Source: Neisseria yangbaofengii (GTDB taxonomy: Bacteria; Pseudomonadota; Gammaproteobacteria; Burkholderiales; Neisseriaceae). Taken from it: a DNA stretch of 64,000 bases. Under the pieces are notes generated by a model that did not search any database, was not told the DNA's origin, and saw nothing but the letters and a program-made list of their open reading frames with translations. Shown here piece by piece: positions 14,635-47,780 of the stretch; position 1 is the stretch's first letter, and the number at the start of each line of letters is the position of its first letter. The DNA is taken from positions 496,001 through 560,000 of the forward strand of contig NZ_CP062976.1 in assembly GCF_014898075.1 (NCBI RefSeq). Direction: 5' to 3'. The position numbers and the translations under genes are program-made.

Positions 14635-14837
14635 TTCGGGATGCGGCAAAGCGTGGGCTGGGTTTGGGCTATGTGCCACAAGATATGGTGGAAGGCGAAC
14701 TGGCTCGGGGCGAGCTTATTCAGGTGTTGCAACCCTTTAGCCATACGTTCACTGGCTTTCACCTGTATTACCCACACCGCAATGTGTCTTATGCCTTAAG
14801 GTGCGTGATTGATTATTTGAAGGTGTGGCCTGTGTAA
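14635..14837 (+). pseudogene. 3' fragment of lysR, exact copy of 23158-23349
   Basis: 192 bp (14635-14826) match 23158-23349 without a visible difference and encode the last 63 or so residues of the LysR regulator at 22473-23351, ending DYLKV and then WPV and a stop. There is no start codon or DNA-binding domain. The fragment begins immediately after the putA terminator and is followed by the first island-type module, so it marks the left edge of the accessory region. Confidence 0.92.
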
Positions 14838-14838
14838 A

Positions 14839-14948
14839 ATGCCGTCTGAAAATTGGTTTCAGACGGCATTTATCATTTAAAAAACTTTCAAAAAACCGCC
14901 CGCTCTTTTTAACAAGCGGTCAAAAACCGCCAATTTTCTGCCAAAAAC
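14839..14948. terminator. Composite module A: AT-DUS hairpin plus Pasteurellaceae-type USS
   Basis: ATGCCGTCTGAA (14839) and TTCAGACGGCAT (14858) form a hairpin, followed by TTATCATTTAAAAAACTTTC, then ACCGCCCGCT...AACAAGCGGT, itself a weak inverted repeat ending in the 9-mer ACAAGCGGT at 14912-14920 with CAAAAACCGCCAATTTTCTG behind it. Convergent genes end on both sides. Confidence 0.75.
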
Positions 14949-14954
14949 TACCCG

Positions 14955-15827
14955 CTACGCTGAAATTTTTTCCCGTAAAAACGCCACCATACTCTGCACC
15001 GTCGGCACGGCTCCGCGATTTTTGTAGTACACGGCGTACAGCGGTACGCTTTGGATTTCCCATTCAGGCAAAATCTGCACCATATTTGGCAAAATCATCG
15101 TATCAAAAATTGGCAGCAGGGCAATGCCAGTAGCGTCGGTGACCATTTTGCCGAGAAAATTGGCATCGTTACTGCTGATACTGCTGTGTGGCTGGATATG
15201 CACTTGATGTCCTTTGTGGCTAAATTGCCATTCTATGCCGTCATATTTATACAATAGCGAATGCTGGTGCAATTCGTGCGGACTGTTGGGCGTGCCGTGT
15301 TTTTGCAGATAATCTTGATGGGCGAACAAGCCGAATTTAATCTCAGTCAGCTTGCGGGCGACCACATTTTCATCGTCAATCACGCCGACCCGCAGGGCAA
15401 TATCCACGCCTTCGTGGATCATATTCACCCGCTTGTTGTTGATTTCCACGGCAAGGCGGACACCAGGATAGCGTTCACGATACTCAGCCAAATGGTGCAT
15501 CAAAATACCCCTGCCGATTTCGGTGGACACCGACATTCGCAATAAACCGCTCGGCTCGCTTAAGCGTTGTTGCACGCTGTCTAAGGCAAGCTGTGCCGCC
15601 TGCATCATCTCTTTGGCTTTTAGGTAAAACTGTTCGCCCACTTCATTTAGCACCACGCCTTTTTTACTTCTGCCGATTAACGCCGTGCCGAGATTTTTTT
15701 CCAGTTCGCTGATACGGCGGCTTAGGCGGGATTTGGGAATGGCGGTAATCTCTTCGGCTTTGCTAAAACTACCCGCCTGCACCACGGTAACAAACAGGCT
15801 GATGTCGTTTAAATTCACATTGTTCAT
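14955..15827 (-). CDS. LysR-family transcriptional regulator
   Basis: A 290-residue LysR protein. The N-terminal winged helix-turn-helix (about 1-65: FVTVVQAGSFSKAEEITAIP, SRLSRRISELEKNLGTALI) is followed by a linker helix and a periplasmic-binding-like effector domain (about 90-290: VDIALRVGVIDDENVVARKL). It diverges from the pirin gene at 15978 across 150 bp, the usual arrangement of a LysR regulator and its target. Effector unknown. ATG 15827 is the only sensible start; the next possible Met would cut into the DNA-binding domain. Confidence 0.9.
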   Translation of the reverse strand: MNNVNLNDISLFVTVVQAGSFSKAEEITAIPKSRLSRRISELEKNLGTALIGRSKKGVVLNEVGEQFYLKAKEMMQAAQLALDSVQQRLSEPSGLLRMSVSTEIGRGILMHHLAEYRERYPGVRLAVEINNKRVNMIHEGVDIALRVGVIDDENVVARKLTEIKFGLFAHQDYLQKHGTPNSPHELHQHSLLYKYDGIEWQFSHKGHQVHIQPHSSISSNDANFLGKMVTDATGIALLPIFDTMILPNMVQILPEWEIQSVPLYAVYYKNRGAVPTVQSMVAFLREKISA

Positions 15828-15977
15828 ATTTCATAACCTATTTTTGCAACATAATGTTTGAGATTTGTATCTTGTTGCGTTTTTATTAAATTATATAATA
15901 CGAACATCTTAACGGCAAAGCGATAAACAGCGATTTATCGTTTTGTTTTCAACAATTTGTAACTGCAAGGAAAAACG

Positions 15978-16697
15978 ATGAAAACCATTTATCACGCCGC
16001 AGACACTCGGGGCAACGCCAACCATGGCTGGCTCAAAAGCCGTCATACTTTCAGTTTCGCCGATTATTACAATCCGGAACGGATGAATTTCGGCGTATTG
16101 CGAGTGATTAACGATGACCACGTTGAAGGCAGTATGGGCTTTGACACGCACCCGCACAACAATATGGAAATTATCTCTATTCCATTAAGCGGAAACCTTG
16201 CCCACAAAGACAGTATGGGCAACGGCAGCATCATCAAAAACGGCGAAATCCAAGTGATGTCGGCAGGCACTGGCATTACCCACAGCGAAATGAACCCGAA
16301 TGCGGATATGCCCGTTCAACTCCTGCAAATTTGGGTGTTCCCAAAAACCCGCAACGTAACCCCACGCTACCAGCAAATCAGCCTTGCCGAGAACGCCAAG
16401 CCGAACGGCTTTCAGCAAATCCTCTCGCCCAACGCCGACGACGAAGGCGTATGGATTCACCAAGACGCTTGGTTTAATCTGGCAAAATGGGACAAAGGCA
16501 CCAGCGGGCAATACCGCCTGCACGACAGCAAAAACGGCGTGTATGTTTTTGTTATCAAAGGAAAAGTACAAATCGGCGAGCAAACCTTAAACCAACGGGA
16601 CGGGCTGGGCGTATGGGACACCGATCGCTTTGAGCTGACCGCCAGCGAAAATGCCGAAATCTTGTTGATGGAAGTGCCGATGAGTTTGAATGCTTAA
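15978..16697 (+). CDS. Pirin family protein (YhaK/YhhW type)
   Basis: A 239-residue bicupin-fold cytosolic protein. The N-terminal cupin carries the metal ligands in THPHNNMEIISIPLSG (about 56-71) and GTGITHSEMN (about 95-105), the two His, His, Glu set of pirins. The start MKTIYHAADTRGNANHGWLK and HTFSFADYYNPERMNFGVLR are typical of YhaK/YhhW proteins, some of which have quercetinase activity and some of which respond to redox or acid stress. ATG 15978 has AAGGAAAAACG upstream. Probably controlled by the divergent LysR gene. A second, more distant pirin is at 34317-35189. Confidence 0.9.
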   Translation: MKTIYHAADTRGNANHGWLKSRHTFSFADYYNPERMNFGVLRVINDDHVEGSMGFDTHPHNNMEIISIPLSGNLAHKDSMGNGSIIKNGEIQVMSAGTGITHSEMNPNADMPVQLLQIWVFPKTRNVTPRYQQISLAENAKPNGFQQILSPNADDEGVWIHQDAWFNLAKWDKGTSGQYRLHDSKNGVYVFVIKGKVQIGEQTLNQRDGLGVWDTDRFELTASENAEILLMEVPMSLNA

Positions 16698-16705
16698 CTG
16701 TTTAA

Positions 16706-16786
16706 ATGCCGTCTGAAAATCGGTTCAGACGGCATTTATCATTTCAAAAACTTAGAAAAAACCGCCCGCTCTTTTTAACACGCGGT
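16706..16786. terminator. Composite module B: AT-DUS hairpin plus degenerate USS
   Basis: ATGCCGTCTGAA (16706) with TTCAGACGGCAT (16724), then CATTTCAAAAACTTAGAAAA, ACCGCCCGCTCTTTTTAACA and CGCGGTCAG. The USS core is ACACGCGGT (16778-16786), one base off ACAAGCGGT. The rest of this 289-bp gap (16787-16986) has no gene. Confidence 0.65.
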
Positions 16787-16986
16787 CAGTTTTTATGGAT
16801 TTTCTGTGAGAAAACCAGCTATTCACCACTTAATAAAGTTCATCATAAGCATCTACAATGTAGCTTGAATATGCATAAGTGGCACTGGTGTTTAAGGCGA
16901 TTGCTGTGCCGAAATACAGCTGTCGTATTGAGCTGGTGGATAGTTCTTCCTCGGAGGATTTGATACAAAAACTTAATTTTGGTTTT

Positions 16987-17538
16987 TTATGCGTAATGTG
17001 TTGCGATTTTTAACATCAAATCCCAGTCTGCAAACACTTGTTTAATCGGGATTTGTTCATCACGCTCCCAATAATAACGTGCGCTATTAAGCAACAATTT
17101 TGCAAACATTTCGCCAATAAAATCCCAATTTTGATCAGCCTGTTGTGCTTGAGCGTATTGAATAAACCGTTGTTTTATCATATTTTCTATCTCTGCAAAG
17201 ACATTCAAACTTCGGCTATTGATACGCCACAACGTCAAAATAAAATGGCGTTTAGAAAACATCGTTGAGTTACTTTGCTGGATTAAATCTTGGAAGTTGT
17301 TGCTAAAATAGTTGTTAAGCATTTGTTCGTATTCATTTTTCAAGCGATCAGCCAATGATTTTGCTAAGCCTTGTTTACCATAATAGTATTTGTAAAACGT
17401 GTTGCGATTAACATTGGCACGCTTGATAATGGCTTGTGTGGTGATTTCATCAAAATCCATTTCTTGCATCAGCTCAATAAACGCCGTTTCAATTGCCAAT
17501 AACGTGCGTTCTGCCCGTGGATCTAATGATGTACTCAT
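16987..17538 (-). CDS. TetR-family transcriptional regulator
   Basis: A 183-residue TetR/AcrR-type repressor. The N-terminal helix-turn-helix (about 10-55) includes TLLAIETAFIELMQEMDFDE and QAIIKRANVNRNTFYKYYYG; the rest is the helical ligand-binding and dimerisation domain. It is divergent from the GXWXG/DUF4334 gene at 17694, whose promoter gap holds a 6-bp-arm palindrome (CAGACA/TGTCTG, 17568-17592), a plausible operator. ATG 17538 is preceded by CGGAGTAATTATT. The coding text is AT-rich compared with the flanks. Confidence 0.88.
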   Translation of the reverse strand: MSTSLDPRAERTLLAIETAFIELMQEMDFDEITTQAIIKRANVNRNTFYKYYYGKQGLAKSLADRLKNEYEQMLNNYFSNNFQDLIQQSNSTMFSKRHFILTLWRINSRSLNVFAEIENMIKQRFIQYAQAQQADQNWDFIGEMFAKLLLNSARYYWERDEQIPIKQVFADWDLMLKIATHYA

Positions 17539-17567
17539 AATAATTACTCCGTTGTTACTAATCTATT

Positions 17568-17592
17568 CAGACAAAATCGTCAAATCTGTCTG
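17568..17592. promoter_or_regulatory. Candidate TetR operator
   Basis: Inverted repeat CAGACA-N13-TGTCTG in the divergent gap between the TetR gene and the DUF4334 gene, with a further TTTGTCTAATTTTG at 17605-17618. Assignment rests on position only. Confidence 0.4.
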
Positions 17593-17693
17593 TGTTATGG
17601 GACACTTTGTCTAATTTTGCCTGTATTCAGCCGATAAAAAGTTTAATAAACTACGCACATCTTTTCGACAACAGCAAATAAGCGAGTAAAACG

Positions 17694-18194
17694 ATGAACT
17701 TAAAGCAAGAATTTGAGCAATTAAAAGCCCAAAACCATTTTGAAGATGAAACCATTTTAATGAATTTCTTTGATAAATTACCGCCAGTTGGCGTGGACGA
17801 AATTTTAGCAAAATGGCAAGGCGGTGATTTTGATACTGGACACTGGGGAACGCCTGAACTGAAAAAACAAAAATGGTTTGGTAAATGGTTCCGTTCTCAA
17901 TTAGATGGCTCACCATTAGTTTGCTATAACGATGAAGGCAAATTATATGCCAATCAACTTATGAACGGGGAATGTTCATTGTGGATGATTGAATTTCGTG
18001 GCAAAGTGTCCGCTACGATGGTTTACGATGGCGCACCGATTTTTGACCATTTCCGCAAAGTGGACGATAACACATTGATGGGGGTGATGAATGGCAAATC
18101 GCCAGCAGGATTCCCCGCTGTGGCGGAAAACGGCAAGTATTATTATTTCTTCTTAGAACGCATTGCTGATTTCCCTGCTGAATTTGTTCGCTAA
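17694..18194 (+). CDS. GXWXG/DUF4334 domain protein
   Basis: A 166-residue soluble protein with the GXWXG domain (WQGGDFDTGHWG, about 40-52) followed by DUF4334 (LDGSPLVCYNDEGKLYAN, FRGKVSATMVYDGAPIFDHF). This pair is found in small proteins of unknown activity, often beside TetR regulators or oxidoreductases. No signal peptide. It diverges from the TetR gene and is probably its target. ATG 17694 gives a full domain start; the ribosome site is weak. Confidence 0.82.
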   Translation: MNLKQEFEQLKAQNHFEDETILMNFFDKLPPVGVDEILAKWQGGDFDTGHWGTPELKKQKWFGKWFRSQLDGSPLVCYNDEGKLYANQLMNGECSLWMIEFRGKVSATMVYDGAPIFDHFRKVDDNTLMGVMNGKSPAGFPAVAENGKYYYFFLERIADFPAEFVR

Positions 18195-18209
18195 ACTTAA
18201 AAGACAGCG

Positions 18210-18275
18210 ACAAGCGGTCGAATTTTGGGGATTTTTTGCAAAAATGCCGTCTGAAATTGGATTTTCAGACGGCAT
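18210..18275. terminator. Composite module C: USS followed by AT-DUS hairpin
   Basis: ACAAGCGGTCGAATTTTGGG (18210 on) followed by GATTTTTTGCAAAA is a near-ideal Actinobacillus-type USS with its two AT-rich tails. It runs directly into ATGCCGTCTGAA (18244) and TTCAGACGGCAT (18264-18275). Confidence 0.8.
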
Positions 18276-18312
18276 TTATCATTTCAAAAACTTTCAAAAA
18301 CCCACCCGTTCT

Positions 18313-19389
18313 TTACTTCAAATTCTCCCTAAAAAACGCGGCCAATTTATCAAACGGGATTTTGCTGGTGTTATCGTACAAATCCACGTGGTTGGCATTT
18401 GGGATAATCAGCAGTTCTTTGTTACTGCCGGTGAGTTTTTTAAACGCATCTTCGGAAAAATAGCGGGAATGGGCGTTTTCACCGTGGATCATCAATACGG
18501 GGGATTGGATTTCGTTGCTGTAGTTTAGTAGCGGCATATTGGCGAATGAATAAGCGTTGGTTGCTGTCCACGCGCCGTTTGAATTGATGCTGCGTGGGTG
18601 GAAACCGCGTGGGGTTTTGTAGTATTGCCAGTAATCTTGCACAAACTGCGGTTCATCGCCGTTTAGTTTTTCAGGCAGGCGGACGCTGCTTTCTGCGGGC
18701 GTGCCGTTTTGGGCGTCTTTGGTGCGTTGGTTGCCAATCTCTTGACGCATGGCGTAACGCTGTGCGGGCGTGGTGCTGTCGTTGTAGCCGTTTGCCATCA
18801 CACGTGCCATGTCGTACATGGTGCTGGCAACGGTGGCTTTGATGCGCGGGTCGGCAGCGGCGGCGTTGAGTGCCATGCCGCCCCAACCGCAAATGCCTAA
18901 AATGCCGATATTACCGCCGTCCACGCCGTCTAGATTGGCAAGAAAATCCACGGCAGCGGAAAAGTCTTCGGTGTTAATGTCAGGCGAAGCGACATTTCTC
19001 GGCAAGCCGCCGCTTTCGCCCGTGTAAGACGGGTCAAAGGCAAGGGTAACAAAGCCGCGTTCGGCTAAGGTTTGGGCATATAAGCCTGAAGATTGCTCTT
19101 TTACCGCACCGAACGGACCACTTACCGCAATCGCTGGCAGTTTGCCTTGGGCGTGTTTCGGCATATATAAATCGGCGACCAAGGTAATACCGTAGCGGTT
19201 GGTAAAATGCACTTTGCGGTGCGTAACTTTATCCGATTGAGCAAATACTTTGTCCCATTGTTGGGTGATGGTCAGCGTTTGGGCGGGGATTTTGATTTGA
19301 GTCATTGGACTTTCCTTTGCATATAAAGTGGAACTGAACGCCATCGCCATTGCAGCGACAAGCGTGTTTGTTATCAAGGTTTTCTTCAT
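18313..19389 (-). CDS. Exported alpha/beta hydrolase (dienelactone hydrolase-like)
   Basis: A 358-residue hydrolase with an N-terminal signal peptide (TLVAAMAMAFSSTLYA, cleavage about residue 24), so periplasmic or secreted. The nucleophile elbow reads GILGICGWGGMAL, with Cys in the nucleophile position as in dienelactone hydrolases; the late His is in IPNANHVDLYD. Substrate unknown; YcjY-like proteins resemble it. Last gene of a probable three-gene operon with the cyclophilin-like and acetyltransferase genes (18- and 9-bp gaps). ATG 19389 is followed by a clean signal peptide and preceded by AAAGGAAAGC. Confidence 0.85.
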   Translation of the reverse strand: MKKTLITNTLVAAMAMAFSSTLYAKESPMTQIKIPAQTLTITQQWDKVFAQSDKVTHRKVHFTNRYGITLVADLYMPKHAQGKLPAIAVSGPFGAVKEQSSGLYAQTLAERGFVTLAFDPSYTGESGGLPRNVASPDINTEDFSAAVDFLANLDGVDGGNIGILGICGWGGMALNAAAADPRIKATVASTMYDMARVMANGYNDSTTPAQRYAMRQEIGNQRTKDAQNGTPAESSVRLPEKLNGDEPQFVQDYWQYYKTPRGFHPRSINSNGAWTATNAYSFANMPLLNYSNEIQSPVLMIHGENAHSRYFSEDAFKKLTGSNKELLIIPNANHVDLYDNTSKIPFDKLAAFFRENLK

Positions 19390-19407
19390 TATTTTGCTTT
19401 CCTTTCT

Positions 19408-19839
19408 TTATTTAAGGCTAAAACCAACCGTTGCCATTCCTGTGCCTAAGGCGTTTTTGAGTTGCTCGGTGTGGGTAATTTTGCCGATACGGGTATAACG
19501 GTAAGGCGTGGAAAAACTTTCATAAAACACCACCAGCGTATCGCCCTGATACAGCAATATATCGCCTGCTTCAATCCGCCCGACCGCTTGATCGTTGCGT
19601 GGCAACGCGTGGGGCAGGGCAGCGTATTTTTCGTTGCGGTGTAAATCCGTCATTGTTAGCGTTAGCGGTAGGTATTTTTTAAATTCGGCGGTAGTTGGGT
19701 TGTCCTCTAATTTAGCGTCAAACTGTTGGTTGCCTATTTGAATGTGCATCATTGCTCCTTGTGCTGTTGTGGTTTGGGGTTGTGCTTGGGTGCAAGCGGC
19801 GAAGATTAAGCCAAATAGGGCGAGAGTGAGTTTTTTCAT
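19408..19839 (-). CDS. Cyclophilin-like lipoprotein
   Basis: A 143-residue protein with a lipoprotein signal (ALFGLIFAACTQA; lipobox FAAC, lipidated Cys about residue 16). The mature part MMHIQIGNQQFDAKLEDNPT, LPLTLTMTDLHRNEKYAAL, GDILLYQGDTLVVFYES and YTRIGKI matches the cyclophilin-like fold family (Cyclophil_like type) often encoded with flavin reductases or hydrolases. No prolyl-isomerase activity should be assumed. It sits between the acetyltransferase and hydrolase genes, co-oriented with very short gaps. Confidence 0.82.
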   Translation of the reverse strand: MKKLTLALFGLIFAACTQAQPQTTTAQGAMMHIQIGNQQFDAKLEDNPTTAEFKKYLPLTLTMTDLHRNEKYAALPHALPRNDQAVGRIEAGDILLYQGDTLVVFYESFSTPYRYTRIGKITHTEQLKNALGTGMATVGFSLK

Positions 19840-19848
19840 TGTGCTGCC

Positions 19849-20406
19849 TTACAGTTGTTTGACAATTTTTGCCGGTACGCCGGCGACTACGCAGTTTGGC
19901 GGTACGTCTTTATTCACCACCGCGCCCGCCGCCACTATCGCATTTTCGCCCACGGTAACGCCCGGTAAAACTGTCGCATTTGCGCCGATCCACGCATTGC
20001 GTTTAATGTGAACAGGGGCAAGTAACACACCGTGGCGTTCGGCGGGATCTAGCGGGTGATTAACGCTGATGATGTTGGCGCGGGGAGCGATCTGCACGCC
20101 GTCTTCAATCACAATGCCGCCCAAATCGGTAAACATCACGCCTACATTGATAAATATATTTTTGCCAAGTGAAATATGGCGACCAAAATCGCTGTAAAGC
20201 GGTGTATTAAACACCACGCTTTCATCTACGTTTTCACCGATAATTTCGCCCAGCAAGGCACGGCGTGCATCGGGTTCGTGATAATTCTGATTTAAGCGGG
20301 CAAGCCGTTCGCTGTTTTCTGCCACGATGTGATGAATTTCATCAAAAAGCGGGCTGTTGCGTGGGATAAATCCTTGTTGCGCTGGTTGGGATAATGCGTA
20401 TTTCAT
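19849..20406 (-). CDS. Maltose/galactoside O-acetyltransferase family (hexapeptide repeat)
   Basis: A 185-residue left-handed beta-helix acetyltransferase like Maa/LacA. The N-terminal mac helix region ([16 protein letters not shown]) precedes hexapeptide repeats ([64 protein letters not shown]). The catalytic His is probably in [12 protein letters not shown]. It transfers acetyl from acetyl-CoA to a sugar hydroxyl; the acceptor is not known. I start at MKYALSQ (20406), with AGGAAAACG upstream, dropping 34 AT-rich codons of a longer frame. First gene of the operon running to 18313. Confidence 0.85.
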
Positions 20407-20713
20407 TAGTTTCGTTTTCCTAAATAACAAAATTGACCAGCGATCTACTTTGATCAATTTTTTGCAAATTTCTGATATAACACCCATTATAAAAAACGCC
20501 AGATACAATGATAATACATAAAATTTGCATAAGATTTATTTGCTCAGGTTCTAAATCAATGTTTAAATTTTAATCTAGAAAATTCGCTATAAATTGTCTA
20601 GAATATGACTAAATACGGTTAAATTTATACAATCATTTTCTTTATATCTTTATAGAACAATGAGTTAGGTTGTCTAGAATCAGGAATTTAGACGAAATGT
20701 AGATAGGATTTAT
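20407..20713. other. AT-rich divergent gap with TTGTCTAG motifs
   Basis: No gene. TTGTCTAG occurs at 20594-20601 and 20670-20677, with TTAGACGAA at 20688, ahead of the AlbA_2 gene. The same heptamer recurs downstream of that gene. Confidence 0.45.
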
Positions 20714-22342
20714 ATGAATGCCAATATAAAACTGAAGCAATTGTTATCTGCGACTGAAAACGAGATTATTGAGTTTAAAGAAGCCAAAACACAATTCGAT
20801 AAACGTAAATTGGGAAAGTATTTTTCAGCGTTAAGTAATGAAGCCAATTTGCAAGGCTTGCCAAATGCGTGGTTGGTGTTTGGGGTAAATGACCACAAAC
20901 AGATTGTCGGTACACAATGTTATTCAACACAATTAGATATCAATGAAATTAAAAAGGAAATTACCGACAAAACAGGTGTTGGATTTATTGAAATTCATCA
21001 GGTAATTCATCCTAATGGAAGAGTGTTATTATTAGAAATTCCAGCAGCACCGCAGGGGATGCCTGTAGCCTATGATGGGCATTTTTACGGGCGGAGTGGC
21101 GAATCTTTAGGGGCGTTGGCATTGTCTGAATTGGAACGAATTCGCCATCAGACCCAGATGGATTGGAGTATCGGTATTGTTCCTGAAGCGACTTTTGATG
21201 ATTTAGATCCACAAGCGATTTTGGTTGCTCGGCAAAAATTTAGTCTGAAAAATCCCAAGCTGGCACAAGAGTTACAACATTGGGATGACATTACCTTTTT
21301 AAACAAAGCTAAAATTACCATCAACAATAAAATTACTCGCACCGCACTATTATTGTTGGGTAAAAGCGAATCGGCATATTTACTTAACCCAGCAAGCAGT
21401 CAGATTACCTGGATTTTAAAAGATCGAAATGGCATTGAAAAAGATTATCAACATTTTGAATGTCCGCTGTTGCTAAATGTGGACAAGGTTTTCGCTAAAA
21501 TTCGCCGAATTACTTACCGATATATTCGAGAAGATAATCTTTTTCCTGAAGAGGTGGAACAATACGCTACCTATATTATTCGTGAAGCCTTACATAATGC
21601 TATCGCCCATCAAGATTACACACTTGGCGGAAAAATTAGTTTGATTGAATTTGAAGATGATCGCTTAGTTTTTTGTAATGCAGGGCATTTTATTCCTGAA
21701 AGCGTTGAAAATGTGATTCAGTCGGATGCCCCTGAAATCCGTTATCGTAATCGCTTTCTTGCCGATGCAATGGTTAATTTAAATATGATAGACACCATTG
21801 GCAGTGGTATTAGAAAGATGTTTTTATTACAAAAAGAACGTTTTTTCCCTTTACCTGAATATGATCTGAGTCATAACCGTGTGCAAGTTACCATTATCGG
21901 TAGAGTATTAGACATTAACTATGCCCGTCAATTGGCTCAAATGCCTGATTTAACCCTTGAACAAATTATGCTACTAGATAGGGTGCAAAAAAAGAAAACG
22001 CTTACTAATGAACAGGCAAAATACTTAAAGCAGCATAGATTGATTGAAGGCAGAAAACCGAATTATTATTTATCTAAAATGGTTGCACAATCAACTGGAG
22101 AAACTGGGCAATACATCCGCAATAGGGCTTTTCACGATCAATTCTATAAACAGAAAATTCTCAATTACCTTGAACAGTTTGGTTCGGCAAAGCGAGAACA
22201 AATCAATGAGTTGCTTGTGCCACATTTGCCTGATGTGCTGGATGCACAGCAAAAATACAATAAAGTCAAAAACTTATTACAGGCTTTAAAGGCGGATGGG
22301 ACAATTCGTGTTCACCAACGTCTATGGTACTTGTCTAAATAG
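20714..22342 (+). CDS. AlbA_2-domain ATP-binding protein (putative regulator)
   Basis: A 542-residue cytosolic protein. An N-terminal AlbA_2/divergent AAA-4 domain (about 1-140: TENEIIEFKEAKTQFDKRKL, AWLVFGVND, HFYGRSGESLGAL) is followed by a GHKL-like ATPase region (about 285-390: REALHNAIAHQDYTLGG, IDTIGSGIRKMF) and a C-terminal winged-helix-like tail. Related proteins are annotated as RecG-like or Schlafen-AlbA transcription factors; some act in phage defence, but that is not shown here. ATG 20714 follows AGGATTTAT. Repeated TTGTCTA/TAGACAA motifs flank it on both sides, suggesting DNA binding and autoregulation. AT-rich relative to the chromosome. Confidence 0.8.
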   Translation: MNANIKLKQLLSATENEIIEFKEAKTQFDKRKLGKYFSALSNEANLQGLPNAWLVFGVNDHKQIVGTQCYSTQLDINEIKKEITDKTGVGFIEIHQVIHPNGRVLLLEIPAAPQGMPVAYDGHFYGRSGESLGALALSELERIRHQTQMDWSIGIVPEATFDDLDPQAILVARQKFSLKNPKLAQELQHWDDITFLNKAKITINNKITRTALLLLGKSESAYLLNPASSQITWILKDRNGIEKDYQHFECPLLLNVDKVFAKIRRITYRYIREDNLFPEEVEQYATYIIREALHNAIAHQDYTLGGKISLIEFEDDRLVFCNAGHFIPESVENVIQSDAPEIRYRNRFLADAMVNLNMIDTIGSGIRKMFLLQKERFFPLPEYDLSHNRVQVTIIGRVLDINYARQLAQMPDLTLEQIMLLDRVQKKKTLTNEQAKYLKQHRLIEGRKPNYYLSKMVAQSTGETGQYIRNRAFHDQFYKQKILNYLEQFGSAKREQINELLVPHLPDVLDAQQKYNKVKNLLQALKADGTIRVHQRLWYLSK

Positions 22343-22347
22343 ACAAG
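22330..22347. promoter_or_regulatory. CTTGTCTA-AA-TAGACAAG palindrome
   Basis: Perfect 8-bp arms with a 2-bp centre, overlapping the AlbA_2 stop codon. Half-sites follow at 22361 (TTAGACAA), 22419 (TTGTCTAA) and 22458 (TTAGACAA), the last ending eight bases before the lysR start. Confidence 0.55.
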
Positions 22348-22472
22348 ATAAAAGAAAAAATTAGACAAAATCAACCCCAAAATTTTACAAAAACATAGAT
22401 AAAACAATTGGTTATGATTTGTCTAAATTTGATATAGAGAAAACAGACTATCCTAAATTAGACAAAATTACA

Positions 22473-23351: not shown

Positions 23352-23361
23352 CTGGTGTAAA

Positions 23362-23400
23362 ATGCCGTCTGAAAATGTACGCTTGTCTTTCAGACGGCAT
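23362..23400. terminator. AT-DUS hairpin, module D
   Basis: ATGCCGTCTGAA (23362) and TTCAGACGGCAT (23389) between convergent genes, followed by a truncated ACCGCCCGCTCTTTTA tail without a USS core. Confidence 0.75.
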
Positions 23401-23437
23401 TTGTCAGCAAAAAACTCTAAAAAAACCGCCCGCTCTT

Positions 23438-23875: not shown

Positions 23876-24025
23876 TTTTACTCCTTAATAGATAGTTTGA
23901 TGTGATTGTGTTGGCAAAATCTTTACTTCAGATGGACGGGAAATACTACCCGAAGTAAATGATTTTGCGTTGATGCAAGCGGTTTTTTTGTTTAAACCTG
24001 CAAAATGTCGTCTGAAAGTCGGGGG

Positions 24026-36989: not shown

Positions 36990-37006
36990 TATTTTATGCG
37001 ATGAAC

Positions 37007-37795: not shown

Positions 37796-37904
37796 TTTTT
37801 ACCTTCTATTTGCTATGGTTAATCAATACGCTTAATTGCGTTAAGTGTGCTTATTATAGTGAGCGTTGTTCGCCGTTGTTTGCCTAAAACACGCAAATTC
37901 TTGC

Positions 37905-38795: not shown

Positions 38796-38855
38796 TTTTT
38801 CTCCTTATATGGACGGCATCGCCAACGTCGGCAATGCCGTATCACGGTGAAGCGG

Positions 38856-39787: not shown

Positions 39788-39892
39788 CAAAATGGGTCTT
39801 CAGGCAAAAAAGCAAAAGTGTAAACAATGCTAGGATTTTCTACACATTGTTATTTAAAAAAAACTCTGAAAAAAAACGCTCTTTTGCTTGCT

Positions 39893-39925
39893 ACAAGCGG
39901 TCAAAAATCGCCAATTTTTTGCAAC
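39893..39925. other. Pasteurellaceae-type USS, module K
   Basis: ACAAGCGGTCAAAAATCGCC followed by AATTTTTTGCAA, a full USS with AT tails, 100 bp before the AAA ATPase gene. The DUS position is taken by ATCGTGTGAAG. Confidence 0.75.
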
Positions 39926-41298: not shown

Positions 41299-41331
41299 TA
41301 GAATATGCTGATATTTATTGTGAGGTGAATG

Positions 41332-44300
41332 ATGGAAGTACAAGATTGGGGTGGTGGCTTAACTGCACACGAAGTAGAAGCAATTGAAAAAATTAAGCAA
41401 GCTTTTTCAGTTCCTGCTAATAGGACAAATCAACCCTTGAAAGGGGAAGGATTAAAAGTATTAGGGGCATTAAAATCTATGTTCCCTTGGAAAGGATATT
41501 CAGGTTTTCGCTTTGCCGACGTGAAAGAACACAAAGAAGGTGAATTTGACTTGGTAATTATTACGCATTGCAATGTATTGATTGTGGAATTAAAGCATTG
41601 GAATGGTGAATCGATTACTAATGATGGTTTACGCTGGTTCAAGGGAAAACAGGATATGGAGTATTCTCCTGTTGAGGTTACTCGGAAAAAATCCTACCTC
41701 CTAAAAAAGAAATTAGAAAAGTTTCGTGGGAAATTTGCCAATTCTACGGAGAAATTCCCTATTCCCAAAATAGAATTTTTGGTTGTGATGACAGGAAATT
41801 CTGATTTTAGTGGTTTATCAGATAAAGAAAAAATGCACACCATTAGTTTAAATGATTTTTTATTATTGGCTGATAATCAAAAATTTACGGAACAATTTGG
41901 AGAATATACAAAATATCCAAATAACCAAACATTAAATAATGATTTCTCTGTATTTGATGAAATTTTCAATGGTAATTCTGTTAAGCCCAAATCCATTAAT
42001 ACAAATGGCTATTATGCTGAAGATACGCCTATTTTTAATCACCCTAAACAGATTTTTCAAGAATATCTTGCTCAAACTGAAAATAAAAAACACCAAGATC
42101 AGGCGTTATTACGCCGTTGGAATTTTACTAAAATTAACCGCCCAGAGGCTCAAACTCCAGATGGTCGCTATCGTTTAGTTAGTCGTGAATATGATGTATT
42201 AAACCATATAAAACTACAAAATAAAGACTTATATCACACCTGTTTAAATTACAAATCCACACCGCAAAAAGGCGAGATTACTGCCGAACATATTGATTTG
42301 TTTGAATTTTTTCCGCAGCAAAAACGCTTTAATCAATTTGTCGGTGGTGTCAGTGGCGAGAATTTAAGCCAAGAACGTCGTTTGGGATTGGTGCAATTGT
42401 TGTTAGACAAATTTGCCCAGTTGCACAAAATAGGTATTGCTCATCGAGATTTGGGTGAACATAGCATTTGGCTGTCGGCAGACGATACCATTACTTTGTC
42501 AGGATTTGCAACAGCATATTTCAAAGATGAACAAACTGTTGGTGATATTCGTGAGATTTTGGAAGTATCAGGCGATTTGGCAAAAGATGCATTTAAACTT
42601 TCAGACAACATTAAACTTACCCCTTATCAATATGATGTGCGTTCATTGGCAGTGTTAGCTTGGCATATTATCAAAGCTGAGCGGATTTCTCCCGCTAGTA
42701 TCACCGATATGAAAACAAAATTGAGTCAAGCAACCGAATGGTATAGTGATTTATTGCGAGAAGCATTATCTGAAAAAACCTTTAAAAGTGCTGTAGAGTT
42801 TTTGGATCAATTTAATCAACATAAACCCGAACAAGCGGTCGATTTTTCCTTTGATTTTGCAAAATTAGATCCATTTATCCACGATATCAACCATTCCCGT
42901 GCTTATCGTGAAGATAATGATTTTATTGTTGAAACCAGTGAAAAAGAAGTTTATCAATCTAACGGCTTATTGGTGAAAGCATGGCTGAATGCGGACCCGC
43001 AACAAGACCAAACCAAAGCACGAGTGGTATTAAATTGGTTGGAAAACATGGCGAAGCTGGCAAATTTATCGCCTGACTATGTGCCGAAAATCCGAGAATT
43101 TGGTATTGCCAAAAAATCTGGCTGCCTGTTTGCCGTGAGTGATTTTATTGATGGGCAGACATGGCAAGCGGTTTGTCAATTGGATTTGCCTGACGAACAG
43201 AAATTGACGATTATTCAAAAATTTATTCAGAATATTGAACATTTACACAGTTTGGGTTTTACGCACGGCGATTTGAAACCTGACAATGTGTTGGTAACGC
43301 TTGATGACGACAATATCCAGCTTCATATTTTGGATATTCTGGATTTTTCGTCAAGTGGACAAAGCCAGTTCAATACCGAATATTCGCCTGAATTTGACCA
43401 CGCTACCGAAAAACAACGGGACAATTTTGCCGTCATGAAAATGGCGTGTGAGCTATTAGACGTAGCGTGGAATATGCCGTCTGAAAAACTTGCCAACATC
43501 AGCGATGTAGTACAGCAAGAATATTCAGACAGCCAAACAGCGTTTATTTCATTGGTTCGTTTTAAGGAAGCACTTAATCCAAAACCGACCATACCGATGA
43601 TAAATATTACGGTTGGCGGGCGAGATTCGTTTTTACCGATTGAGATTTATCCTGAAAATGGCGAGTTGTTTGTTCAATTTGAAAAAAGCAAACAAGGCGA
43701 TGTATTGGTGCAATTCATCGGTTTTGGTGGCGTGTTAAAAGTATTTTATTCTGTCCAAGATAAGCAATTTACTCACGCCTTATCTCCGATTGAACGTAGC
43801 TATATCAGCAAGCGAGACCGTGATAACAGTGTGATGAGTTTAAGACTTGGTCTGAATATTACTTATGGTCCTTATAGCGAAATGAAGGCACTCAATGACG
43901 CACTAAAAGATGATGAGCTATTTAACCAAACTATCAATCAATTCATTGATGAGCAAATTTCTAGGTTGCCTGAAAAAGAATTGATTGAGGAAGTTAAAGT
44001 TTTTGAAACTGATTTTGAAATAGAAATTGCCGATATTGATGCCACAGAACCACTAATTGAGCAACGCCCAAGTATTCAAAAATTGTGGCAAGCAATTTTG
44101 GATACGGAAACCGAAGCTTTACCGTCTGTTACTGCAAATGAAGCATTGCAAAAAACTGAAAATGGTGAGATCTATATCCCGTATGACGGTGAAATCAATC
44201 CAATTGATCAGTTTCAACGTGATGAAATCGTGGAAGCCATCGGTAAAAGTGAAGATGGCGAAAAAACATTTAAATATGGTGTAGTGGATATTGCTAAAAG

Positions 44301-46323
44301 CCAGTTAAATGAATTACATATCAAGCCGAAAAGCCTGACCAATTCAGCAAATAATATTCAAGCGGATACGCCTGTTTATCTGCAAAGTGTACAAAATAAA
44401 GCGTCATATAAACGCCGTAAAAATGCTTTGCAACGTATTTTAGACGGCGAAAGTGCAGTCAAAGGTTTGGTACATTATTTTGATGAAAGCTGTACGTTGC
44501 CGTCTGAAAAATACGATGTTCAAGTAAGTGATAAAGAATTTGCTCGTTATGACCAACCTGAAAAAGGTGTGAGTTTGAATGACGCACAGCGTATCGCTTT
44601 TCAAAAACTGATTGCCAATGGACCGCTCTCGTTATTACAAGGTCCGCCGGGAACGGGAAAAACCGAATTTATTTCGGCTTTTGTGCATTATCTGTTTGAT
44701 GTGCAGAAAGTTCGTAATATTTTGCTGGTCAGCCAATCGCATGAAGCCGTGAATACGGCTGCCGAACGTATCCGTAAACACTGTCGGCGTTTGGGGACAG
44801 ATTTGCAACTGGTGCGGTTTAGTAACCGTGAAGTAGCGGATTCGGAAATTCTGGAAGATGTGTTTTCGCCGAATTTAGTCAGCCAAAAACGAGCGCAATT
44901 AAATGTAAACAAGATTGGTAATATCTGTCAGCTTGGGCGCAGTATGGGGCTGCCTGAAAGCTATTTGCGTGAGCGTGCCGAATTGGCATTTGAGATGGGG
45001 ACACAAATCCGCCGTTATCAAAAAATCGTCAAATCAAGTAAAGATGAAATTATTGATGAGGACGAAAAACGTTTACGTAAAAAATTAGAAAAAAGTATTA
45101 AAGAACAAGCTCAAACAAAGGGACTGCGTGAATTAGTGGAAATTGATGAGATTTTGCCGAAACTGATTGGAGAATTAAATCAAAAACACAATATTCAACC
45201 AAGTGAAGATGTACAGGCAGGCAAGCTTATTGATTTAACCCAAGATATGTTAGAAGCTCTTTCCAACGAACGCACCAATTATGATGAGTTTTTGGCTCGT
45301 TCCCGCCAGCTTGTGATTGGTACTTGCGTTGGTATTGGGCAAAAACATATCGGCATTGCCGATAATCTTTATGATTGGGTAATTGTGGACGAAGCGGCGC
45401 GTTCTATTTCCAGTGAATTGGCGATTGCAATGCAGTCTGGTACTCGGATTTTGCTGGTAGGCGATCATAAGCAGTTACCGCCGTTATATTCGGAAGAACA
45501 TAAAAATGCACTAGCCCGTCGTTTGGGCATTTCCAAGCGTGGCGAAGAGTTAGATCAAGCATTGGGCAGTGATTTTGAACGGGTATTCCAATCCGAATAT
45601 GGCAAGCAGACTTGTGCCACGCTCAAAATCCAATACCGCATGGCTCCTGCCATTGGTAGCTTGGTGTCATCTTGCTTTTACGGCAATGTTTTGGAAAACG
45701 GTAAACAGGACAGCGATGTGCCGAACAGTTATGACAAGCTGCCTGAAAAACTTAAAGCTTGCGTAACGTGGTTAGATACGGCTTCATTGCCGAAAGCGTA
45801 TCACGAACAAGGCAAAAAAGGTAGTTTGTCCAACCGTGCCGAAGCCGATGTAATTATTGGTGTATTACAAGACTTGGCGGAAGATGAAACGTTTATGAAC
45901 AGTAAAACCGTTCATAAATGCTTAGAAAAAAACGAACAAGCCATCGGTGTTATCTGTATGTATGGCGATCAGAAACAGTTGATTCGAAAAAAATTCAATG
46001 AACGCAGTTGGAGCGATGATTTCCGCCGTTTGGTTAAAATTGATAGTGTGGATAGCTATCAGGGTAAAGAAAACCGTGTGATTATATTGTCGCTGACACG
46101 CTACGATAAATCATACAGTACAGGCTTTTTACATTTGCCGAACCGTATCAATGTAGCCTTATCTCGTGCGATGGACAAACTTGTGATTGTCGGGGCAAAA
46201 ACCGTATGGGAACAACCGAAAAACAGCAAAGCACCATTGGCAATGGTATTACGCTTTATGCAAGAACAAACAAATAAGCAATATTACGCCATTAAGACCT
46301 TAAAAAACGGAGCGAAAAAATGA
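41332..46323 (+). CDS. NERD - pseudokinase - kinase - SF1 helicase fusion (putative defence protein)
   Basis: A 1663-residue multidomain protein. Order: NERD nuclease-related domain (about 35-160: GEFDLVIITHCNVLIVELKH, the D and E-x-K pattern); a first kinase fold with catalytic loop HRDLGEHSIW (about 372), which lacks the Lys, Asn and DFG Asp and is probably inactive; a second kinase with intact HGDLKPDN (about 650) and a DILDF Mg-binding motif; then an UPF1-like/COG1112 SF1 helicase with Walker A LLQGPPGTGKTEF (about 1105), Walker B VIVDEAARS (about 1354), GDHKQLPPLY, YQGKEN (about 1575) and NVALSRAMDKLVIVG (about 1607). I start at the second ATG, six bases from GAGG. It carries a USS (42831) and two DUS (43474, 44499). 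The combination recalls Mokosh MkoA and PglW; role in phage defence is inferred. Confidence 0.85.
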   Translation: MEVQDWGGGLTAHEVEAIEKIKQAFSVPANRTNQPLKGEGLKVLGALKSMFPWKGYSGFRFADVKEHKEGEFDLVIITHCNVLIVELKHWNGESITNDGLRWFKGKQDMEYSPVEVTRKKSYLLKKKLEKFRGKFANSTEKFPIPKIEFLVVMTGNSDFSGLSDKEKMHTISLNDFLLLADNQKFTEQFGEYTKYPNNQTLNNDFSVFDEIFNGNSVKPKSINTNGYYAEDTPIFNHPKQIFQEYLAQTENKKHQDQALLRRWNFTKINRPEAQTPDGRYRLVSREYDVLNHIKLQNKDLYHTCLNYKSTPQKGEITAEHIDLFEFFPQQKRFNQFVGGVSGENLSQERRLGLVQLLLDKFAQLHKIGIAHRDLGEHSIWLSADDTITLSGFATAYFKDEQTVGDIREILEVSGDLAKDAFKLSDNIKLTPYQYDVRSLAVLAWHIIKAERISPASITDMKTKLSQATEWYSDLLREALSEKTFKSAVEFLDQFNQHKPEQAVDFSFDFAKLDPFIHDINHSRAYREDNDFIVETSEKEVYQSNGLLVKAWLNADPQQDQTKARVVLNWLENMAKLANLSPDYVPKIREFGIAKKSGCLFAVSDFIDGQTWQAVCQLDLPDEQKLTIIQKFIQNIEHLHSLGFTHGDLKPDNVLVTLDDDNIQLHILDILDFSSSGQSQFNTEYSPEFDHATEKQRDNFAVMKMACELLDVAWNMPSEKLANISDVVQQEYSDSQTAFISLVRFKEALNPKPTIPMINITVGGRDSFLPIEIYPENGELFVQFEKSKQGDVLVQFIGFGGVLKVFYSVQDKQFTHALSPIERSYISKRDRDNSVMSLRLGLNITYGPYSEMKALNDALKDDELFNQTINQFIDEQISRLPEKELIEEVKVFETDFEIEIADIDATEPLIEQRPSIQKLWQAILDTETEALPSVTANEALQKTENGEIYIPYDGEINPIDQFQRDEIVEAIGKSEDGEKTFKYGVVDIAKSQLNELHIKPKSLTNSANNIQADTPVYLQSVQNKASYKRRKNALQRILDGESAVKGLVHYFDESCTLPSEKYDVQVSDKEFARYDQPEKGVSLNDAQRIAFQKLIANGPLSLLQGPPGTGKTEFISAFVHYLFDVQKVRNILLVSQSHEAVNTAAERIRKHCRRLGTDLQLVRFSNREVADSEILEDVFSPNLVSQKRAQLNVNKIGNICQLGRSMGLPESYLRERAELAFEMGTQIRRYQKIVKSSKDEIIDEDEKRLRKKLEKSIKEQAQTKGLRELVEIDEILPKLIGELNQKHNIQPSEDVQAGKLIDLTQDMLEALSNERTNYDEFLARSRQLVIGTCVGIGQKHIGIADNLYDWVIVDEAARSISSELAIAMQSGTRILLVGDHKQLPPLYSEEHKNALARRLGISKRGEELDQALGSDFERVFQSEYGKQTCATLKIQYRMAPAIGSLVSSCFYGNVLENGKQDSDVPNSYDKLPEKLKACVTWLDTASLPKAYHEQGKKGSLSNRAEADVIIGVLQDLAEDETFMNSKTVHKCLEKNEQAIGVICMYGDQKQLIRKKFNERSWSDDFRRLVKIDSVDSYQGKENRVIILSLTRYDKSYSTGFLHLPNRINVALSRAMDKLVIVGAKTVWEQPKNSKAPLAMVLRFMQEQTNKQYYAIKTLKNGAKK
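42831..42839 (+). other. USS inside the helicase gene
   Basis: ACAAGCGGTCGATTTTTCC with GATTTTGCAAAA shortly after, inside the coding sequence (encoding EQAVDFSFDFAK). Two DUS lie further on in the same gene, at 43474-43485 (ATGCCGTCTGAA) and 44499-44508 (GCCGTCTGAA). Confidence 0.65.
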
Positions 46324-47780
46324 ATGAACAAAAAACGCCGTACAATCAAATAGATTTTGTAATCAAAGCTCCACGCTTCCGAATTGTGTTTTCGTATATG
46401 AGTGATAAAGGAGTGGCGTTTGTACGTGAATATTTATTGCGGTTACTTAAAATAACGCCATGCAAACCTGCACAAATTGCTCAATATTTCGGTTTCAATC
46501 AATACGAAACCGAAGTAGCTTTGGCAGATTTAGAGCAAAACAAATGGATTGTTTGGCGAGATGACGGTTTGATAGCCTTATCTGCGGAAGGTTTACGTTT
46601 GTTTCAAAACGATGGACAAGATTCTCCACAAATCCCCACATTAAAAGAATTGGGTGGCGAATACCGTATGGAGTTACTGGATAATAATTTTTTGCAGAAA
46701 AAAGATTGTGATAAAGTCCGTCAGCAAGCGATAGAATTGGATATTGAACCGAAAGTGTTATCCGAAAGCAGTGAAATTGCCCGAAAATCGTTTCAAAACC
46801 GTTTCCGCCAATTAATGGAAGATGATATCGTTGAGGTAAAAAATGAAAAGGGAGAGATTGAAAAAGATATTTCATTGTACAAAATTGATGTCATCGAACC
46901 CAAAGGCTCGCCTGAATATTTTCGTTTTACGCAGGCATTTGAGCTACTGCCTGAAACAGGCGAAGCCAAAGAACGCCACGATGTACAGACTATTATTCAT
47001 CAGGATAATATCCGACAAGCCATTACCGCCCAGCTGGAACAGTTTGGTAATTATGATAATTTGCGTGAATTACGCAAAAGTATGGAAGAAATTGGTGATG
47101 ATGATACCTTGAGAGTATTGTTTGGTGGACGATTTGATATTATTAAGTTTAAGAAAATTCAATATCAATTTGAGCAAGAAAAAGGCTTGTATTTTTTAGG
47201 GCAGATTTATCATCAATCAAAGAACAATAAGGAACCTCAATCAAAGAACAATCAGGAACCTCCTGATATGGTTTTTGATAAAATTGACACTATATTAGGT
47301 CAGCTTAAAAAAACATCAGAAACTAAAAAACTCTATTGGCTTGCACCAAGCGATATTTATTGGGCAAAACAACGCAAAATTCACGATAAACTGCAAAATT
47401 TGGTAGATAAGCAAAAACAAGGTTATGAATTCCGTTTGTATCTGCCATTATCCGACAAGCAAAACCAGCGTGAGCGTGAAAAGAAGAGGTGGCTAAATGA
47501 ATTTAGAGATATTTCTGACGACAAAATCTTGTACGGATTTTGTGAAGGATTTTTGAACGGTAATACAGAAATTCTACTTTTAGAAGATAAATTTGCAGTG
47601 GTCTGTTATCACGCTAAATTAACAGGTTATCCTGTTACTCTACCGATTGGTTTTATGACAACAAAAACAGATAAAGTAAGACATATTATCGAATTGGCAG
47701 AAAAATATCTTAATTCAACAATATTCTCTGATATAGATGAGGGAGAGAAAAGAGATTTTGGACTATTGAGCAAACGTTAA
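46320..47780 (+). CDS. Translationally coupled partner protein, winged helix plus possible PLD-like C-domain
   Basis: A 486-residue protein of no family I can name with confidence. Its ATG overlaps the helicase stop (ATGA), so the two are made together. Residues about 25-100 look like a winged helix-turn-helix (FVREYLLRLLKITPCKPAQI, FNQYETEVALADLEQNKWIV). The middle is highly charged with a tandem QSKNN repeat (about 302-317). The C-terminal part has KIHDKLQNLVDKQ and YHAKLTGYPVTLPIGFMTT, the latter faintly like the HxK...G(S) core of phospholipase-D nucleases but degenerate. A PLD partner would match Mokosh type I; this is weak inference. AT-rich throughout. Confidence 0.7.
   Translation: MNEQKTPYNQIDFVIKAPRFRIVFSYMSDKGVAFVREYLLRLLKITPCKPAQIAQYFGFNQYETEVALADLEQNKWIVWRDDGLIALSAEGLRLFQNDGQDSPQIPTLKELGGEYRMELLDNNFLQKKDCDKVRQQAIELDIEPKVLSESSEIARKSFQNRFRQLMEDDIVEVKNEKGEIEKDISLYKIDVIEPKGSPEYFRFTQAFELLPETGEAKERHDVQTIIHQDNIRQAITAQLEQFGNYDNLRELRKSMEEIGDDDTLRVLFGGRFDIIKFKKIQYQFEQEKGLYFLGQIYHQSKNNKEPQSKNNQEPPDMVFDKIDTILGQLKKTSETKKLYWLAPSDIYWAKQRKIHDKLQNLVDKQKQGYEFRLYLPLSDKQNQREREKKRWLNEFRDISDDKILYGFCEGFLNGNTEILLLEDKFAVVCYHAKLTGYPVTLPIGFMTTKTDKVRHIIELAEKYLNSTIFSDIDEGEKRDFGLLSKR

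Follow-up and report, generated by a model that had tools for sequence, protein, structure and literature searches.

The chromosome of Neisseria yangbaofengii (NCBI RefSeq assembly GCF_014898075.1) is a single contig (NZ_CP062976.1) of 2,645,607 bp, and we analysed the stretch 496001-560000, 64 kb that we call the window and number from its first base. Between putA (10887-14570) and gshA (48100-49722) lies an island of about 33 kb (14635..47780), with a GC content of 0.441 vs 0.507 and 0.510 in its flanks. It carries uptake signal sequences (USS) of the Apl type, a Pasteurellaceae signal, often beside the neisserial DNA uptake sequence (DUS). Redfield et al. (2006, PMC1626085) describe the Apl-type USS of Actinobacillus, Mannheimia and relatives as a core, ACAAGCGGT, with AT-rich downstream segments; Frye et al. 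(2013, PMC3630211) describe DUS and its dialects as GCCGTCTGAA, often in an inverted repeat with ATGCCGTCTGAA. The first-pass annotation of this DNA had listed five exact and five near copies of ACAAGCGGT in the island, and all ten are present. They lie in two main layouts: (a) a USS hairpin, in the composites joined to a DUS hairpin that comes before or after it, the two starts being 46-54 bp apart, and (b) a USS that ends a plus-strand gene and runs directly into a DUS hairpin.

14841..14944: composite, layout (a); DUS hairpin (14841-14867) followed by a USS hairpin whose right arm is ACAAGCGGT at 14912, with an AT tail; the minus-strand RNA is predicted to fold, with a T run
16708..16810: composite, layout (a); DUS hairpin, then USS-like ACACGCGGT at 16778
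18210..18273, plus strand: layout (b); USS ACAAGCGGTC, its AT tail running into a DUS hairpin (18246-18273), right after the GXWXG gene
25613..25676, plus strand: layout (b); USS-like ACAAGCGGG, its tail running into a DUS hairpin with one mutated arm, right after the LysR gene at 24708
26496..26550: layout (a) USS hairpin module with GCAAGCGGT at 26519; no DUS within 60 bp
34198..34293: composite, layout (a); USS hairpin (ACAAGCGGT at 34221), then DUS hairpin (34267-34293)
36159..36213: layout (a) USS hairpin module (GCAAGCGGT at 36182) adjoining a mutated DUS-like hairpin and without exact DUS; outside the folding set
36891..36990: composite, layout (a); USS hairpin (GCAAGCGGT at 36914), then DUS at 36960 with its second arm mutated
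39870..39924: USS ACAAGCGGT at 39893 with a strong tail; a hairpin is unsupported by folding (z 0.17)
42831..42863, plus strand: USS ACAAGCGGT and tail within the mkoA coding sequence

Apl-type USS in the island

The exact core ACAAGCGGT occurs six times in the window (14912, 18210, 34221, 39893, 42831 and 54359) vs 0.51 expected, and none of 100 shuffles reached six. The whole genome of 2.65 Mb shows no enrichment, with 38 exact copies (29 forward, 9 reverse) vs 32 (18 and 14) for the reversed-pattern control. Five of the 38 lie in the island, where 0.42 would be expected from the remainder (P = 7.6e-5). The strand skew of 29:9 is explained only in part by the tailed sites, all of which are forward. 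Among the 32 exact sites beyond the window, four belong to one identical 16S rRNA-like stretch, recognised by eye. Raw counts of one-mismatch copies (27 in the island, 5 outside) are not decisive alone, and we rejected them as proof, since the reversed 9-mer (36 vs 14) and one of 12 shuffled 9-mers (15 vs 9) are similarly skewed.

The tails were assessed using a flank model, a weight matrix from 65 exact sites at 24 Pasteurellaceae loci with the 9-bp core positions excluded; we chose the training loci ourselves, and four of them (L147, L148, L156 and L207) come from G359, a Pasteurellaceae genome that itself bears DUS. The window has 32 sites no more than one mismatch from the core. Scores of 7.3 to 21.6 are reached by ten of them, and the other 22 stay at -6.3 or lower; for comparison, 6.9 is the 99.9% quantile for 5,000 positions drawn at random from the window. 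The ten (14912, 16778, 18210, 25613, 26519, 34221, 36182, 36914, 39893 and 42831) are all on the plus strand, five with an exact core and five with one base changed, and they are exactly the copies first listed, so the AT-rich tails ascribed to most of them are found at all ten. The single exact copy noted outside the island, at 54359, is indeed without a tail (-13.7). Beyond the window, scores above 7 are reached at two of the 32 exact sites, 2100748 and one of the pair near 431 kb, and the model finds only seven tailed exact USS in the whole genome. Apl-type USS are foreign signals in this genome, and their density, which the first-pass annotation had proposed to compare, is not equal along the chromosome. 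A tail pattern, RCAAGCGGTCNAAAATCNNNAATTTTYTGCAA, occurred in a collection of 84,980 species in three stretches of two named genomes, Mannheimia sp. and Actinobacillus vicugnae, both Pasteurellaceae.

Exact DUS GCCGTCTGAA number 58 in the window vs 0.09 expected; 20 are in the island (0.60/kb vs 1.23/kb in the flanks). That many of the USS stand beside DUS was borne out: six of the ten have an exact DUS no more than 60 bp away vs 0.53 expected (0 of 20,000 draws), an analysis in which the tail expression was written after the sites had been seen and gives no independent test. For the five exact USS the count is three (P = 0.0013). Sites 36182 and 39893 adjoin mutated DUS-like sequences.

Structure of the composite modules

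In layout (a) the left arm of the USS hairpin is AAAAAACCGCCYGCTYTTTTT. Minus-strand folding of six modules gave a hairpin followed by a T run in five (z -1.6 to -3.2), and the composite hairpins probably terminate transcription. The six layout (a) modules, six of seven of the hairpin type, sit 3' of a minus-strand gene, a placement that could account for their shared orientation; site 39893 precedes a plus-strand gene. The island sites resemble known Apl-type USS in core (five exact) and in flank-model fit; what differs is their place in a Neisseria chromosome and their setting, most being one arm of an imperfect hairpin and many adjoining a DUS. The DUS, in turn, is here paired with, and in other genomes fused to, another family's signal.

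Further copies were seen elsewhere in the same genome. In the stretch 422000-440000 (L044), at 9043-9667 of that stretch, a USS of the Hin type, the Haemophilus signal, and an Apl-type USS stand back to back after an NAD(P)H-binding gene, followed by a small open reading frame (ORF) and then by a USS that leads straight into a DUS; this makes a third two-signal spot in the genome. Two more copies of the USS hairpin module, at 2100726 and 2113639 (L045/L046), flank a type I restriction locus that includes integrase, Fic and RhuM-type genes, and they adjoin LysR and HxlR genes.

Gene content and edges of the island

14635..14853, plus strand: left-edge fragment, 219 bp that repeat the LysR gene's 3' end (23158-23376) with 3 differences
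14955..20508: LysR, pirin, TetR, GXWXG/DUF4334, alpha/beta hydrolase, cyclophilin-like, hexapeptide acetyltransferase (Pfam)
20714..29154: SLFN/AlbA_2, LysR, SnoaL, NAD(P)H-binding, LysR, SDR, flavodoxin-fold, YCII, ABM, LysR (Pfam)
29230..39470: Na/H exchanger-TrkA_N, an ORF without an assigned family, luciferase-like, thioredoxin, SDR, pirin, DUF896, HxlR, GNAT, SDR, two GST (Pfam)
36262..36360, minus strand: AaHKsRNA22 (Aggregatibacter sRNA 22, Rfam RF02902), 81.8 bits, gathering score 39.8
40003..47780, plus strand: AAA_14/DUF4143 protein, then Mokosh-type mkoA (41329-46323) and mkoB (46320-47780) (Pfam, PADLOC)

DUS hairpins lie at or near each end of the left-edge fragment (14587-14624 and 14841-14867). 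Near the right edge, at about 47925-47945, there is a dRS3-like repeat, ATTCCC...GGGAAT. A segment of about 180 bp (39669-39846) has matches of 75-86% identity in several Neisseria genomes and at two further positions in its own genome, and looks like a dispersed intergenic repeat.

No tRNA was found in the 64-kb window, and no integrase or transposase among 32 scanned island proteins (Pfam was used for 30 and PADLOC for mkoA and mkoB; three of the Pfam set were also run with PADLOC, and smaller or overlapping ORFs lay outside the set). The thioredoxin barely reaches the TraF model (23.3 bits vs a cut-off of 23), which we read as fold overlap. With neither an integrase nor transfer genes in the scanned proteins, and with a thioredoxin as the one borderline TraF match, the island does not qualify as an integrative or conjugative element or a prophage.

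The mkoA product is a full-length PADLOC match of 1784.9 bits and that of mkoB scores 296.2 bits; the two genes stand side by side, as adjacent full-length MkoA and MkoB do in Mokosh. Unlike known Mokosh, the island mkoA carries an Apl-type USS within its coding sequence. Relatives of the mko genes, with 73-79% DNA identity, are found in both families. In the neighbouring AAA_14 gene the Hin-type USS core AAGTGCGGT occurs at 40706, a single occurrence not above chance. The two SDR genes at 33275-34147 and 37007-37795 are paralogues that have diverged, with 80% identity over 173 bp and 71% over 136 bp. A segment of about 110 bp spanning the HxlR gene start (35584-35700) matches many Neisseriaceae at 75-91%, in some of them at several places.

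RF02902 is an independent marker in the island. Among the stretches scanned with Rfam it was also found, at the gathering score, in one stretch each of the Pasteurellaceae genomes G359 and G391, twice in one stretch of G396 (Pasteurellaceae) and twice in L138, a stretch with fused hairpins from the Neisseriaceae genome G043; it was found in none of seven Neisseria control stretches (111.5 kb). The window DNA at this position matches many Pasteurellaceae and, among the matches listed, no Neisseriaceae apart from its own genome.

Relationships of the island genes

DNA searches covered 83 Neisseriaceae, the window's own genome included, and 140 Pasteurellaceae, a set anchored on Mannheimia sp. 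USDA-ARS-USMARC-1261 (L058, in G356). Three candidate places per genome were scored in Neisseriaceae and two in Pasteurellaceae, and a better match may be missed. The matches listed reach down to near 199 bits for Pasteurellaceae and near 60 bits for Neisseriaceae, and none listed does not equal none. The best bit scores among the matches listed, which also bound the identities and comparisons in this section, are as follows.

LysR 14955: Neisseriaceae 379, Pasteurellaceae none
Pirin 15978: Neisseriaceae 408, Pasteurellaceae 431
TetR-GXWXG: Neisseriaceae 865, Pasteurellaceae none
Hydrolase: Neisseriaceae 506, Pasteurellaceae 617
Cyclophilin-acetyltransferase: Neisseriaceae 1021, Pasteurellaceae none
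SLFN: Neisseriaceae none, Pasteurellaceae 338
LysR 22446: Neisseriaceae 150, Pasteurellaceae 454
SnoaL: Neisseriaceae 250, Pasteurellaceae 244
NAD(P)H-binding-LysR: Neisseriaceae 145, Pasteurellaceae 308
SDR 25723: Neisseriaceae 406, Pasteurellaceae 233
Flavodoxin: Neisseriaceae 199, Pasteurellaceae 206
Kef: Neisseriaceae 493, Pasteurellaceae 788
ORF 31288: Neisseriaceae 369, Pasteurellaceae 205
Luciferase-like: Neisseriaceae 304, Pasteurellaceae 338
Pirin 34317: Neisseriaceae 898, Pasteurellaceae 489
SDR 37007: Neisseriaceae 603, Pasteurellaceae 221
AAA_14: Neisseriaceae 1610, Pasteurellaceae 1478
mko: Neisseriaceae 6392 (AAA_14 included), Pasteurellaceae 5526

Among the matches listed, no genome other than the window's own holds the whole island, and the top DNA identity over a gene was 87%. 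Near-identical DNA in the other family was not found for the window, the best Pasteurellaceae match being 86% (AAA_14). At the protein level, LysR 22446 shares 72-76% identity with five Pasteurellaceae vs 54-55% with the nearest Neisseriaceae, among the loci fetched.

In the best tree of each of nine genes, neither family forms one side of any branch. Starred branches force at least two changes in seven of them (hydrolase, LysR 22446, LysR 24708, mkoA, AAA_14, Kef and SnoaL), and are compatible with a single origin in two (luciferase-like and pirin). Family labels are clustered in the AAA_14 and Kef trees (a value as low in no more than 17 of 500 shuffles), and long branches make the placement of some LysR rows unsure. 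The window AAA_14 pairs with that of Neisseria G026 (92/88, not starred). The AAA_14/DUF4143 proteins of G044 (Neisseriaceae, L168) and G436 (Pasteurellaceae, L176) are near-identical, on branches of 0 and 0.011 with starred support of 99/96, and this pair probably represents a second recent cross-family transfer, judging from the tree.

Gene order is shared in part. The Pasteurellaceae genome G450 has SnoaL, NAD(P)H-binding and LysR genes in the order of window 23438-25613, with a USS in the same gap; it points in the opposite direction to the window near-copy at 23975, which is without a tail. A. vicugnae has cyclophilin, acetyltransferase, hydrolase, LysR, USS and Kef together in a single run, arranged differently from the window. 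Relatives of the window mko (G359) and AAA_14 (G401) genes lie in DUS-bearing Pasteurellaceae stretches. At 6050-6140 of L147 (G359), an Apl-type USS arm stands 10 bp from a DUS hairpin and about 1.2 kb from the Mokosh match.

The first-pass annotation had suggested DNA of Pasteurellaceae origin and had proposed comparing homologues. Pasteurellaceae neighbours do exist: Kef and LysR 22446 nest with Pasteurellaceae, and RF02902 points the same way. The suggestion is only partly borne out: TetR-GXWXG, cyclophilin-acetyltransferase, SDR 25723, pirin 34317 and others are best matched in Neisseriaceae, the island is a mosaic, and a single Pasteurellaceae origin is not supported by these comparisons. 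Of the two outcomes named as contradicting the suggestion, an even USS density and island genes all nesting within Neisseria, neither was seen.

Two-signal islands in other genomes of both families

DNA carrying both signals is present in both families. We searched for fused hairpins as DUS, 0-25 bp, the Hin-type core AAGTGCGGT, 0-25 bp and reversed DUS, counting hairpins with USS in both arms on both strands. The pattern occurs in four of 83 Neisseriaceae (G043, 28 matches; G047, 23; G018 and G042, one each) and four of 140 Pasteurellaceae (G392, 18; G394, 5; G391 and G393, 3 each); the reversed pattern gave no match, a weak control in which the DUS is destroyed. DUS hairpins enclose a Hin-type USS in 72 of 98 cases in 18 stretches chosen as holding or adjoining such matches, vs two of 29 in five other G047 stretches and none of 15 in the window. 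Rotation tests of 17 stretches gave P 0.001-0.0075 in nine, which were chosen for such matches and make the test partly circular, and were non-significant in L140 (0.18), L085 (0.08), three stretches of G359 (0.41, 1 and 1) and G395, G396 and G401 (1 each).

At least one GCCGTCTGAA was found in 127 of 140 Pasteurellaceae, and at least 18 in ten of them (18-90 vs 1-8 for the reversed control): G392 (90/4), G394 (74/3), G401 (59/4), G396 (35/8), G395 (30/3), G393 (29/1), G359 (28/4), G488 (22/3), G391 (18/3) and G402 (18/4). DUS hairpins occurred in nine of ten Pasteurellaceae genomes searched (nine of these DUS-rich genomes, without G402, plus G364), G488 having none. The DUS-bearing stretches of Pasteurellaceae take two forms, with and without fused hairpins.

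A recent crossing is apparent between G047 (Neisseriaceae; one contig of 2,949,123 bp) and G392 (Pasteurellaceae). Hin-type USS number 12-16 per 20 kb in three stretches of G047, 0-1 in five others and 3 in a sixth. Nine stretches of G047 were compared with the first 120 kb of the 185-kb G392 contig C13, and ten segments from three G047 loci (42,214 bp) are shared at 95.7-99.1% identity; for this pair, near-identical cross-family DNA was thus found. The segments fall in a 72,236-bp block of C13 (18,034 to 90,269), in an order changed from G047. The block holds 74 DUS, and the parts of its flanks covered by the count, 1-10, 90-120 and 140-160 kb, hold none; Hin-type USS are still frequent in the flanks. 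Twenty of the 21 fused cores lie in parts shared with G047. Thirteen of the 20 segment ends, two of them forming one junction, lie within 100 bp of a DUS vs 3.7 expected (0 of 5,000 draws), and ten within 100 bp of a Hin-type USS vs 2.6 expected; alignment ends may creep into mutually similar hairpins, and recombination at hairpins would leave the same trace. One shared stretch encodes LysR, SDR, hydrolases, DsbA-like, aldehyde dehydrogenase and nitronate monooxygenase proteins (ten proteins, one without a family) and is of the same kind in gene content as the window island. In G391, DUS occupy 95-135 kb of a 365-kb contig and are absent from the two flanking 20-kb stretches.

A class-wide pattern search of 274 genomes, aimed at Pasteurellaceae, returned one single-site genome besides the window's own. 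Carriage by plasmids or phages was considered and rejected. Among 72,556 plasmid records none matched the 141-bp module. For 7 kb of the G047 island there were matches in 183 plasmid records, covering 9% of that DNA or less among the matches listed and in no case over 80%, and in no phage record. The fused 19-mer was absent from viral contigs, and viral contig L208, where USS and DUS are spaced alike, shows no USS tail by eye and was taken as a chance case.

Discussion

We consider it probable that the island accreted from small cassettes drawn from a pool common to Neisseriaceae and Pasteurellaceae, with transformation and recombination at hairpins. The cassettes would comprise redox and detoxification enzymes with LysR, TetR and HxlR regulators, an antiporter and the Mokosh defence pair. 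Part of the island may have passed through an Apl-type (Actinobacillus- or Mannheimia-like) host, where intergenic hairpins were or became USS, and part would carry DUS acquired in Neisseria hosts. Competent cells take up DNA bearing the signal of their own family, PpdA/ComN being the proposed receptor for USS (PMC12616744), and DNA with two signals should enter both families; the repeated hairpins would supply homology at which recombination adds, swaps or duplicates cassettes. Because some of the best listed matches are in Neisseriaceae and Pasteurellaceae relatives lie in DUS-bearing stretches, a shared pool moving both ways fits better than a single source. What the data show directly are the sites and their flanks, the mixed affinities of the genes, two-signal DNA in either family, the near-identical segments of one Neisseria-Pasteurellaceae pair and their ends at DUS; we infer transformation as the route, uptake of the modules, the order in which signals were gained and terminator activity.

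Several points weigh against the shared pool. A passage of Frye et al. (2013, PMC3630211) reports no significant transformation of N. meningitidis with USS alone, and entry into Neisseria must then rest on DUS; for four of the ten window USS any exact DUS is more than 60 bp away. DUS stand beside USS no more often than by chance in G395 (0 of 11), G396 (0 of 10), G401 (0 of 6) and three stretches of G359 (1 of 13), and tight pairing is therefore not universal. The nine gene trees hold 8-23 rows each, chosen by similarity to the window; in the pirin tree each family is whole in 18% of bootstrap trees, and in the Kef tree the window row alone breaks the family split, nested in a Pasteurellaceae clade on starred branches. 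Neither RF02902 nor any other Rfam family was found in seven G047/G392 stretches. The window's own composite hairpin had no match in the species-genome collection (its own genome possibly excluded), and the longest strong Pasteurellaceae match to the window is 79% over 6.5 kb among the matches listed, which suggests that the transfer was old, many-stepped or from an unsampled donor.

A one-way relic, that is, a single arrival from an Apl-type Pasteurellaceae with its USS, later joined by DUS while the useless USS decay, would account for the lower GC and the DUS density half that of the flanks, for the five of ten cores that are one base off and for the imperfect left arms of the USS hairpins. 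We think it unlikely: several genes are best matched in Neisseriaceae among the matches listed, Pasteurellaceae relatives lie in DUS-bearing stretches, other islands show cross-family traffic, and the nine trees hint at mixed descent across the island. Both motifs are also G+C-rich hairpins, and selection for terminators rather than uptake could keep them adjacent, as the hairpin and T run in five of six folded USS modules and the position of six of seven hairpin-type modules 3' of a minus-strand gene would suggest. Such convergence leaves unexplained the USS-like AT tails, the exact tailed USS inside mkoA and the near-identical DNA in two families; the Hin-type fusion is absent from 79 of 83 Neisseriaceae and 136 of 140 Pasteurellaceae, and within G047 fused hairpins are rare away from the chosen stretches (2 of 29 vs 72 of 98). 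We regard it as very improbable.

Least probable, by a little, is that contaminated assemblies produced the cross-family copies and that the window island is a local oddity. G392, G043, G391, G393 and G394 are indeed multi-contig assemblies; G047, with three separate Hin-type-rich stretches, and the window genome are single contigs. The C13 block is 72 kb within a 185-kb contig, has flanks with USS and without DUS, and is reordered and 1-4% diverged relative to G047, which makes an assembly error in C13 unlikely; the confinement of DUS to 95-135 kb of the G391 contig also argues against contamination. Within the shared-pool explanation, the composite DUS-USS hairpins may be selected boundary elements of a class of mobile cassettes that has no transfer gene of its own, carries the uptake passwords of both families and is shuffled at the hairpins, one branch of the pool having fused them into the 19-bp word GCCGTCTGAA-ACCGCACTT; this we put forward tentatively, at somewhat short of an even chance.

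Transfer of chromosomal genes between Haemophilus and Neisseria, with a donor uptake signal nearby, was reportedly described by Kroll and colleagues in 1998. Compared with that account, the present case involves tens of kb, both signals in one module, both families, and Apl- and Hin-type USS. No description of joined DUS-USS hairpins or of such islands was found in open-access titles and abstract openings. Frye et al. (2013, PMC3630211) present uptake sequences as a barrier for transformation of H. influenzae and N. meningitidis. Such sequences are seen as confining transformation to a family, and DNA with two signals would cross both ways. These islands give concrete genes and hairpins for asking whether uptake bias spreads signals, and whether gene exchange between Neisseria and Pasteurellaceae is governed by uptake specificity.

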